Shown here: positions 60,419-64,000 of the stretch, one piece after another
Position numbering within the stretch: position 1 is the stretch's first letter
Layout of the letters: each line of letters starts with the position of its first letter
Source of the DNA: Clostridium sp.
GTDB taxonomy: Bacteria; Bacillota; Clostridia; Oscillospirales; Acutalibacteraceae
Direction: 5' to 3'
DNA: 64,000 nucleotides
NCBI GenBank assembly: GCA_031272895.1
Contig: JAISSW010000008.1
Location: 51,474 to 115,473 of the forward strand
Position numbers and translations under genes: made by a program
Notes under the pieces: generated by a model
The model's input: the letters and a program-made list of their open reading frames with translations, nothing else
Databases searched by the model: none
Told to the model about the DNA's origin: nothing

Positions 60419-60552
60419 AGGGAACAGGCCGCACTATTCAGGAAGTTAAAAACGCAAAAAACTTATCGTTGACCCTCCAATTACAAGGTTCAATAGATCT
60501 TGCACGTGCACAGGGTAAAATATTGCAACTGTTTATTCGGCCGACCACAAAA
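60415..60552 (+). pseudogene. Fragment resembling a polymorphic-toxin REase-fold tail (Tox-REase-7-like)
   Basis: VEGTGRTIQEVKNAKNLSLTLQLQGSIDLARAQGKILQLFIRPTTK. Confidence 0.5.
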
Positions 60553-60970
60553 CAAACAGTGTTTCCCTCGGCAAGAAGTTTCTTTATTTTGCGTAGCACA
60601 AGGCCGATTTCACTCTGTGCATATTTTGACTGGCGGATTTTCGTGAGGTCGTCCTCAGTAGCGCCAATCATATGAAAAATCATATTATCCTCGTCATAGC
60701 TTGCACCGACAAAGTAAAATCCCCCGTTATCGGGCAGAAGCTTAGGCTTTTTCAGCAGTGTCCGCACAATTTCGGAAAAAGCTCCGCCTGATGTACTGTA
60801 GTAGCGCGTAGTCTCGTCACGGGACCAGCAGGCATATATTTTGGGGCTTTCATAGCGAGCCAACTGTTTTGCTTGTCCCGTCTGTGCCTGTTTAACAGGA
60901 CAAACGCGCTCACAAAGACCGCAATCAACACAAGCCTTCCCGTCAATCACGGGGAACTGGAACCCCTTGT
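60540..60970 (-). pseudogene. Fragment of coenzyme F420 hydrogenase/dehydrogenase beta-subunit family
   Basis: EDKGFQFPVIDGKACVDCGLCERVCPVKQ; ACWSRDETTRYYSTSGGAFSEIVRTLL; IRQSKYAQSEIGLVLRKIKKLLAEGNTVCFV then loss of homology. Confidence 0.75.
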
Positions 60971-62146
60971 CTTCAGCCCGCGCGTTATGCGGCTCAGCTC
61001 CTGCGCGCGGGTGACGTCGCCGCGCTGCGGGCTTTTGTCCTCCATTAAGCCCAGATAGTCCACGATTACCAGGCACGGCCCGGAGCAATGTCGCGGATGA
61101 TGCTCTAAAAACCCGGAACCCGTTGTCGCGATTCCGGTGTTCTCGCGGGCTTGACAGTTTGGAGTTTCATCAGACTTTTTCTGCGCGTCATTTGCAGCGG
61201 GCCATGCCCGACGGATTTTCGCCCGCAGCTTGCCCACCGTCAACGCGCCCTCGTCGTCAATCAGCAGGCGCGAGCCGGGCTTGTTGAGCGTATTCAGACT
61301 ATCCGCAAGGCGTGCGAATTCGTCCGCGTTGGGTGTGCCGCGGCGGAACAGACTTCCCGACACCTGCGACTCGCCCGCCATCGCCCGGGCGACCAGCTGC
61401 TCCGCGCTCATCTCAAGGCTGAAAAACAGCGTCCTGTGTCCGCTCCGCGCGGCGTTCATGGCGATTTGCAGCGCAAAACTCGTCTTTCCCGCGCCGGGGC
61501 GCGCGCCGATTATCACAAAATCCCCCGCGTGCAGACCGCCAAGCAGCCTGTCCAGCCGCCTAAAGCCCGTCATCAGCCCCGGTTGTTCACCGTTTTGCAC
61601 GCGCTGAGCAAGGGCGGAATAAAGCTCTGCGGCCACGCTGTTGAACACGCGCGGCTCATCCGATTTGTCGCCCTGACGGAGCTTGTACAGCTCTTGCTCG
61701 GCTTGCTCTATCAGCTCGCCCGGCTCGGCAGCCTGTGCCGCCGCGTCCTGCCGCAGGGCAGCGCCCAGGGCCATCAGCTCGCGCCGCAGTGCGTCCTTGC
61801 GCACCATAGCCGCGTAGCTCATCACGTTGGCGGTGGACGGCACAGACTGAGCCAGCTCGAACAGATACTTGCGACCTGCGGCGTCGTCAAAGCTCTTTTC
61901 GGCGACGAGCGCCCGGAGCACAACCAGCGGGTCAATCGGCGCGGTGCCGGGGGAAGAGGGCGCGGCTCTCAGCTCGGCAATCACCCTGAATATCGCCTTG
62001 TGCTGCGGCAGGTAGAAGTCCTCCGGCTTGAGGAAAGCCAGCAGCTTATCGGCGCAAGCGGGCTCGCGCAGAATGCTTCCCAGCACCGCCTGCTCCGCCG
62101 AAGTATTGCTCGGCGCCGTCAGCTCCGCGAAAATGCCGTCACTCAT
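60947..62146 (-). CDS. dnaB: Replicative DNA helicase DnaB, C-terminally truncated
   Basis: SAEQAVLGSILREP, GARPGAGKTSFALQIAMNAA, FFSLEMSAEQLVARAMA, VIVDYLGLM; ends at RITRGLK + 7 unrelated residues. Confidence 0.85.
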   Translation of the reverse strand: MSDGIFAELTAPSNTSAEQAVLGSILREPACADKLLAFLKPEDFYLPQHKAIFRVIAELRAAPSSPGTAPIDPLVVLRALVAEKSFDDAAGRKYLFELAQSVPSTANVMSYAAMVRKDALRRELMALGAALRQDAAAQAAEPGELIEQAEQELYKLRQGDKSDEPRVFNSVAAELYSALAQRVQNGEQPGLMTGFRRLDRLLGGLHAGDFVIIGARPGAGKTSFALQIAMNAARSGHRTLFFSLEMSAEQLVARAMAGESQVSGSLFRRGTPNADEFARLADSLNTLNKPGSRLLIDDEGALTVGKLRAKIRRAWPAANDAQKKSDETPNCQARENTGIATTGSGFLEHHPRHCSGPCLVIVDYLGLMEDKSPQRGDVTRAQELSRITRGLKTRGSSSP

Positions 62147-62342
62147 AAAATCACCTCTATGTATAGCGTAAAAAGCGGGGAAAACCAACCCAAAGTGGTC
62201 GCGCGTGGCTGAATTTGCGATGAAATTCGTCACTTTTCAAGGGCTGAAGAGCCCCTGTCGCTCCACTCCGCGCCGGCGGTCAAACCCAAAGCCTTAAGCA
62301 CTCGGTCGCCCAGCTCGCTGCTATAGGCGCGACTCCTTTTGA

Positions 62343-62490: not shown

Positions 62491-62566
62491 CCGGGTGTGG
62501 CGCAGTTGGTAGCGCGCTTGACTGGGGGTCAAGAGGCCGTGGGTTCAAGTCCCGCCACTCGGACCA
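62491..62566 (+). tRNA. tRNA-Pro (anticodon GGG), CCA encoded
   Basis: CCGGGTG/CACTCGG acceptor, GCGC D-stem, CTTGA-CTGGGGG-TCAAG anticodon arm, TTCAAGT T-loop, ACCA end. Confidence 0.95.
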
Positions 62567-62581
62567 GCGTGACCGCCTCAT

Positions 62582-62657
62582 ACGAATAGCGTATGGGACG
62601 GGTTTTGGGTAAAGCGCACAAGGTGCGGCTGGGATAGCGGGCGATGTGGCGGCAGGG
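62582..62657. repeat. 76-bp direct repeat, copy 1
   Basis: ACGAATAGCGTATGGGACGGGTTTTGGGTAAAGCGCACAAGGTGCGGCTGGGATAGCGGGCGATGTGGCGGCAGGG. Confidence 0.95.
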
Positions 62658-62800: not shown

Positions 62801-63319
62801 ATGACCGAGTATAAGATTGGGGACATAGTGCGTTTCGGACCGTATGACTGGCGGGTGCTGGCTGTGGAGAACGGACAGGCCTTACTTATTACCAAGAATT
62901 GCTTGCCGAATCACCGAGCGTATCACAACAAGTGGAAGAATATAACCTGGGCGCATTGCGACCTGCGTAAATGGCTCAACGGCGAGTTCTATGATTCTTT
63001 CGGCGCAGAAAAAGGTCGAATTTTGCAAACACATCTTGACAACCCGCATAATTGGGAGTATCATACCAAGGGAGGCAAACCAACCGACGATTACATCTTC
63101 TGCCTCTCGATTGACGAAGCGAAGAGGTATTTCAAGGACGGCTCTGACAAAGTAGCGCAATACCGCGGTAAAATGGGCTGGTGGTGGTTGCGCTCGCCTG
63201 GTAGCGGTCAGAACCTCGCCGCGAGCGTCTACAGAGATGGCCCTGTCGACACCTGTGGCTTCCTTGTCTACTTGAAGGCCTCGGTTGCGGTCCGCCCTGC
63301 TTTGTGGCTGAATCTATAA
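62801..63319 (+). CDS. DUF6273-like protein; C-terminus resembles a C-type-lectin-fold DGR variable region
   Basis: FGPYDWRVLAVENGQALLITKN, WAHCDLRKWLNGEFYDSF, WWWLRSPG...AA.V...G.V...G..V.....AVRPALWLNL. Confidence 0.8.
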   Translation: MTEYKIGDIVRFGPYDWRVLAVENGQALLITKNCLPNHRAYHNKWKNITWAHCDLRKWLNGEFYDSFGAEKGRILQTHLDNPHNWEYHTKGGKPTDDYIFCLSIDEAKRYFKDGSDKVAQYRGKMGWWWLRSPGSGQNLAASVYRDGPVDTCGFLVYLKASVAVRPALWLNL

Positions 63320-63340
63320 TCGAACATATCTTCGAATCAA

Positions 63341-63416
63341 ACGAATAGCGTATGGGGCGGGTTTTGGGTAAAGCGCACAAGGTGCGGCTGGGATAGCGGG
63401 CGATGTGGCGGCAGGG
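63341..63416. repeat. 76-bp direct repeat, copy 2 (75/76 identical to copy 1)
   Basis: Same as copy 1 except A62598 -> G63357. Confidence 0.95.
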
Positions 63417-63424
63417 AAAGCGGC

Positions 63425-64000
63425 TCACCCGCGTTGCCCTTGACAACGTTTGTCAGGCGGCGTTTTTTGCTGATGCCGCGCCTGCACTTTTTCCCAATCG
63501 GAGCGACTGACAATCGCCTCGTGAACGTCTTTGAAAACCGCCATGTTTTCGGGGTTGTTTTGGATGCGCCGCTTGAGCTTGAAGGACTTTGAGTAGGTCT
63601 TGAAGTTGATAACGTCGCCGCAGCATTCCTGCAAACTCAGGATTTTTGAAACCGTGGAGCTGTTCCAATGATTTGGCAATTCTCTGTTTTGCTTACCTCC
63701 TCTCGCCAACCCCTTGCTTTCCCAGTAGTTCATAGGAGTCATGACATTTTCACTTTCCAGCGCAGCGGCAATTTGCTCTATACCCAAGCCTTCAAGTGAC
63801 AGGCGGTAAATCCGGCGCACAACGGCTGCTGCCTCATCGTCTGCAATCCAGCGTTTGGGATTGTTTGGGTCTTTCCTATGCCCGTCCGCACATTCGGCGG
63901 GTGTATCATTATCCCCAAAATGCCGTGACGAAATTGAGCCGTCAATTTCTGCAAAAACGTGTGTATCGCTCGGCCGAAAGTACAATTTTCGGGTCATGGC
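63425..64000 (-). pseudogene. Large serine recombinase fragment (recombinase domain only; runs to window edge)
   Basis: RKDPNNPKRWIADDEAAAVVRRIYRLSLEGLGIEQIAAALESENVMTPMNYWESKGLA, HWNSSTVSKILSLQE, FKDVHEAIVSRSDWEKVQ; C-terminal domain missing. Confidence 0.7.

Follow-up and report, generated by a model that had tools for sequence, protein, structure and literature searches.

The DUF6273 gene and its surroundings

The window, which is the whole 64,000-nucleotide stretch that was analysed (G000:C10:51474-115473), belongs to a 1.3 Mb assembly that consists of 16 contigs and is 86% complete. An intact open reading frame (ORF; positions 62801-63319, + strand) near the right end of the window runs from ATG to TAA and encodes a 172-residue protein. 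The protein is a single-domain DUF6273 protein that matches the Pfam profile PF19789 above its gathering score (E-value of 2.3e-25; 89.8 bits versus a cut-off of 23.5), and the match covers 1-171 of 172, which is the full domain. The gene is flanked by two copies of an 80-bp direct repeat (62578-62657 and 63337-63416, both on the + strand) that are 98% identical, each of which holds a CGCAC-AAG-GTGCG hairpin. The left copy begins 11 bp after a tRNA-Pro (GGG) gene, which was identified by ARAGORN and Rfam 234 bp 5' of the DUF6273 gene (62491-62566, + strand). The right copy ends 8 bp before a large serine recombinase fragment (63425-64000, - strand; PF07508, E-value of 1.2e-20). The recombinase gene is cut at the contig end, which coincides with the right end of the window 680 bp past the DUF6273 gene, and the sequence beyond is therefore unreadable.

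Several further features are observed around the gene. A small hairpin, TCGAA-CATATC-TTCGA (63320-63335, + strand), lies directly 3' of the stop codon and was considered as a possible analogue of the target hairpin of a diversity-generating retroelement (DGR), but its fold (z of -1.04) is no better than that of shuffled sequence and it was set aside. Upstream of the tRNA gene, a dnaB-like helicase ORF (60947-62233, - strand) covers, in its best stretch, no more than roughly half of the DnaB_C profile, and the ORF runs into an overlapping 4Fe-4S/FrhB-N ORF (60438-61088, - strand); on these two grounds, the dnaB-like gene looks truncated by rearrangement. Genes that belong to a DGR or carry a DGR-like variable region (VR) are also found beside tRNA genes elsewhere, with a tRNA-Pro (CGG) gene located about 110 bp from the reverse transcriptase (RT) gene in the congeneric genome G002 (L108:4729-4805) and a tRNA-Cys gene located 72 bp from such a gene in the genome G003 (L112:549-622). 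The arrangement hints that the DGR/VR genes of the genus may be carried by genomic islands that insert next to tRNA genes.

The paired repeats would also fit a different origin of diversity: they may delimit a small mobile cassette made up of the gene, which would then vary through recombination with other copies rather than through reverse transcription. The tRNA-Pro gene on one side, the recombinase fragment on the other and the tRNA neighbours in G002 and G003 agree with such a cassette. However, the 80-bp repeat occurs only twice in the own genome and is absent from four congeners, and DNA and exact-pattern searches of IMG/VR, phage records and plasmids with the repeat or the gene returned nothing. 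An Rfam search of the repeat likewise gave nothing over threshold except the tRNA. Moreover, recombination among copies alone would not keep third codon positions while changing the first two. A cassette of this kind is a very improbable source of the gene's diversity.

The window protein is confidently predicted to adopt a C-type-lectin-like fold. Its AlphaFold2 model, for which an alignment of 23 DUF6273 proteins served as input, has a mean pLDDT of 93.8. The best solved structure for the model in a PDB comparison is 9qa6 (Z-score of 17.8 over 167 residues), the N-terminal DUF6273 domain from the IgA peptidase of Thomasclavelia ramosa. The predicted model and 9qa6 have the same fold, but their sequence identity is 24% and 9qa6 is an accessory domain of a protease. 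The PDB matches that follow are mostly C-type lectin domains with Z-scores of 5.6-7.6, and the BPP-1 tropism determinant Mtd (1yu4) is present among the matches with a Z-score of 5.9. The C-type-lectin-like assignment is sound because these middling lower matches agree with one another and with the DALI result already published for phage DUF6273 domains (PMC10743442). As modelled, the window protein thus has the C-type-lectin fold that is asked of a DGR target.

Codon footprints in the candidate variable region

The original prediction described the C-terminus of the protein as a DGR variable region, and the ORF ends exactly with the residues that were quoted. The candidate VR (WWWLRSPG...VRPAL; 63179-63304, + strand) aligns with the template repeat (TR) and the VR of a DGR in G002 and bears footprints in third codon positions and in synonymous codons. 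In a codon alignment with nine homologous VRs, 29 codons of the candidate VR (63203-63289, + strand) are resolved into variable spacers and a fixed AA/V/G scaffold. The proposed scaffold, RSPG-x5-AA-x-V-x3-G-x-V-x3-G-x2-V-...-VRPALW, is found again in homologues with other spacers. The 3' end of the VR contains a 34-nucleotide stretch that reads directly as adenine-free (63277-63310, + strand), at the place where an IMH-like boundary would be expected. An equivalent adenine-free GGCGGTGTGCGCCCTGCT is common to the TR and VR of G002, and divergence starts right after it. The window VR is longer than the G002 VR by one codon.

The third positions of the spacer codons are biased as proposed. The claimed tally of 21 spacer codons (15 ending in C or T, five in G and one in A) is close to a strict recount, which gives 15, four and one, respectively, of 20. 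From RSPG to VRP, 22 of the 29 codons end in C or T, whereas random stretches of the own genome's genes have a mean of 15.4 and reach 22 in 1.9% of cases. The excess goes beyond codon usage, which the original prediction had named as a source of a similar bias. Two spacer codons (CAG and AAG) and one AGA are misfits to a pure AAY template.

A complete, textbook DGR with a DUF6273 target is present in G002, a member of the same genus. Contig C11 of G002 (locus L108) carries, in this order and in one direction, a gene for an 861-residue YobI-ATPase-DUF6273 target, an Avd gene (phrog_3206 'Avd protein of DGR', E-value of 3e-24), a 128-nt TR and an RT gene with the motifs LGNQTSQ and YMDD. In a codon alignment with its own TR, the G002 VR is changed at 14 of 27 template adenines and at 0 of 72 non-adenine sites. 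A second YobI-ATPase-DUF6273 gene of G002 (L109:2969-5443) contains a VR that differs from the G002 TR at 13 of 72 non-adenine sites and is therefore not currently templated by it. This gene may exemplify how a target drifts off a DGR within one genome.

The footprint of the window VR was analysed in codon alignments with 16 homologues. By a plain mismatch count, the window VR is changed at 18 of 27 adenines of the G002 TR and at 29 of 100 other sites; this count was set aside as proof because adenine-rich codons coincide precisely with the sites at which the protein tolerates variation. It was replaced by codon-level tests, which are not confounded with protein constraint in this manner. At residues that differ between the window protein and its homologues from G002 (two genes), G003 and G458, third positions are identical in 37 of 77 cases in the VR (0.48), compared with 0.29 in the gene body. 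Synonymous resampling with the own codon usage gives an expectation of 22.0 for the 37 observed matches (P = 0.0036), and column permutation gives P = 0.004 for the excess of the VR over the body. The test was run on three reference sets and yielded P values of 0.0036 (G002, G003 and G458), 0.20 (genus g37 alone) and 0.018 (the third set). The third-position signal of the window VR is weaker than that of a true cis VR and more diluted than those of other DGR-like VRs.

Residues that agree between the window protein and its homologues provide a second footprint. Whole codons at these residues are identical in 30 of 35 cases in the VR (0.86) and in 74 of 191 cases in the body (0.39; P = 1.5e-4), and this difference, along with the adenine-free 3' stretch, indicates that the scaffold is kept at the DNA level. 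In distant DUF6273 genes, the codon identity at shared residues reaches at most 0.54 in the VR, with little or no rise over the body, and a paralogue in the own genome lacks both footprints (codon identity at shared residues: VR, 0.24; body, 0.44). A within-codon adenine test, the strictest of those used, was also applied; it compares the adenine and non-adenine sites of the same adenine-bearing codons in the G002 TR. With this TR, the only one known, the window VR is changed at 18-20 of 27 adenines and 11-12 of 21 non-adenines, and the difference is not significant (P = 0.10-0.26, depending on gap placement), whereas the test is significant for G002's own VR (P = 4e-5). The signal of the window VR is therefore genuine, although diluted; a cognate TR unlike that of G002, or a rewriting process that ended a while ago, would have this effect.

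Retention of third positions and of whole codons is predicted by DGR copying but not by ordinary protein evolution. In an account by ordinary mutation, selection would act on lectin-like binding loops, the W, G, V and RP residues would hold the fold, and the NNY codons would follow from composition. The failure of the strict adenine test in the window VR is in line with this account, as are the distant homologues, in which the scaffold recurs at the protein level but codon footprints are missing. DUF6273 is also common where an RT is not found, being present in 35 of 98 relatives, while the DGR-type RT motif occurs in only about 3 of the 98. Nevertheless, ordinary evolution leaves unpredicted both the 86% codon identity of the VR at shared residues, against 39% in the body, and the third positions that are kept at differing residues beyond codon usage, and it is unlikely to be the explanation.

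Reverse transcriptases, template repeats and DUF6273 genes in related genomes

The own assembly contains neither an RVT_1 profile match nor a match to the G002 RT. A TR-shaped pattern, TR-like DNA and a second copy of VR-like DNA are likewise absent from the assembly, and the genome has four matches to DUF6273, none of which is a TR-like fragment. The original prediction correctly stated that the window lacks an RT and a template repeat, and the same is true of the whole available assembly. It had also proposed a genome search for both elements and named their absence as one half of what would speak against a DGR origin; the search was run and this half was observed. Because the assembly is 86% complete, the absence of the TR and RT is not final.

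A search of the family with the G002 RT identified relatives in 30 of 398 genomes. Twenty of these RT loci were fetched, and 13 contain a nearby repeat pair in which at least 85% of the mismatches concern a single base (A, or T as its complement); the method therefore recognizes DGRs when they are present. Among the 398 family genomes, the TR-shaped pattern occurs only in G002.

An RT and a TR that the bin does not include, or that are carried by a phage, a plasmid or a genomic island, could still reside in the cell and be diversifying the window VR today. The intact ORF is consistent with such present-day activity, as are the incompleteness of the assembly and the end of the contig inside the recombinase gene so close to the target, and trans diversification of orphan targets has been documented in Thiohalocapsa (PMC10907252). 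However, the own assembly yields zero RT candidates, and the dilution of the window footprint relative to other DGR-like VRs is as expected once rewriting ends. Ongoing diversification in trans, a stronger form of the orphan-target explanation that we favour, is thus doubtful.

The clearest apparent DGR scars, judged by codon patterns, are those of TIR-DUF6273 fusion genes in the genus g37 (L164:6448-7914, L165:2948-4018, L163:4510-6693 and L166:1183-2814). The set includes two genes in G413, one gene with two DUF6273 domains in G225 and a gene in G040. Across four of their VRs, the scaffold codons GCC GCG, GTG, GGC, ATC, GGT and GTC are invariant, and the spacer codons differ in their first two positions but mostly share the third. 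One CNG slot (CGG, CAG, CTG and CAG) varies only in its middle base, the presumed template adenine. Where residues differ, third positions agree at a rate of 0.74 in these VRs versus 0.45 in the bodies. G413 and G040 are each 98% complete and yielded no RT, and G225 has a single RT match. A DGR in G454, also from genus g37, was considered as the source of these VRs and rejected; it has another target, and its TR does not match them.

DUF6273 genes with variable ends are observed in other genomes as well. RUG13580 and RUG13696 (loci L033, L042 and L039) each contain several short DUF6273 genes with variable ends rich in Y, S, D, N, V and I, and no RT was found in either genome. A protein kinase-DUF6273 fusion in G405 (L168:101-2122) has a variable C-terminus rich in Y, D, S and V, in a genome where an RT was not found. 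Viral DUF6273 relatives are distant: two records of uncultured phages show 26% identity, and IMG/VR contains one partial relative.

A probable orphan DGR target and its relation to known systems

The window gene is best explained as one that encodes a DUF6273 lectin-like domain, had its loops rewritten by a DGR from the lineage of G002 and is now an orphan target (probability of roughly 0.7). In that lineage, an adenine-rich template RNA is reverse-transcribed with errors at adenines, and the cDNA replaces the VR. AAY codons therefore change in their first two positions, while the third position and the adenine-free scaffold codons stay. The DGR would thereby have written the C-terminal, ligand-facing loops, through which the window domain may bind a variable ligand. 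The RT and TR of the own genome may have been lost, may lie in the unassembled 14% or may act in trans from a mobile element. Most probably, the gene is a DGR target of the past or one that is served remotely, and it is not demonstrably active; present activity is unproven because the genome shows no RT, TR or TR/VR-like DNA and the strict adenine test is not significant. The predicted variable region thus gains a known target domain, a DGR in a congener, codon footprints and a predicted C-type-lectin-like fold, and is weakened by the missing RT and TR and by the adenine test.

In relatives, DUF6273 forms the C-terminal end of YobI-ATPase, TIR or kinase proteins and is probably their sensing end. 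It is conceivable, albeit unlikely, that the stand-alone, TIR-, YobI-ATPase- and kinase-fused DUF6273 sensors represent a pool of DGR-written genes shared in the family and kept without an RT of their own, so that transient or mobile DGRs would supply diversity in trans across strains and species and the sensors would outlive their mutator. The window gene illustrates that codon patterns can disclose past DGR action when only a homologous DGR elsewhere is available and the genome yields neither RT nor TR. If this proves general, surveys that require an RT and a TR would miss many diversified sensor genes, and the TIR-DUF6273 genes in particular would be immune sensors subject to hypermutation that today's DGR finders overlook.

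One of the closest systems is the DGR on contig C11 of G002, which shares with the window gene a homologous VR, scaffold codons and the adenine-free 3' end. It differs in acting in cis on its 861-residue YobI-ATPase-DUF6273 target, whereas the window gene encodes a bare 172-residue domain without Avd, TR or RT. DGRs with DUF6273 targets have been published in phages (PMC10743442 and PMC11792537). The tentaclins (PMC10743442) and the Faecalibacterium prophages (PMC11792537) likewise carry the VR in a C-type-lectin-like DUF6273 domain, and DUF6273-only targets exist among them; in the Faecalibacterium phages the VR occupies the DUF6273 C-terminus, as in the window gene. These phage targets are receptor-binding or decoration proteins with the RT and TR alongside, whereas the window gene sits beside a tRNA gene and a recombinase fragment and is matched by no phage record at the DNA level.

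Cellular DGRs with conflict-system targets have also been described (Dore et al. 2024, PMC10907252), and the YobI-ATPase-, TIR- and kinase-DUF6273 proteins resemble the hypermutated sensors of those systems by analogy. The likenesses are CLec targets joined to an NTPase, TIR or kinase domain, short CLec-only targets, variation in the first two codon positions, which the DUF6273 genes appear to share, and incomplete or remote loci, which are served in trans there and may be here. The systems of Dore et al. combine an RT and a TR in the same genome and display diversity in reads, whereas the window assembly is without RT and TR; in addition, the target domain of the window is DUF6273, unlike theirs. 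Separate publications already describe DGRs that target DUF6273, CLec targets that are orphan or remote, and TIR or NTPase proteins diversified by DGRs. Relative to the open-access literature, what may be new here is the persistence of DGR scars, readable from codon patterns alone, in genomes without a detected RT or TR.
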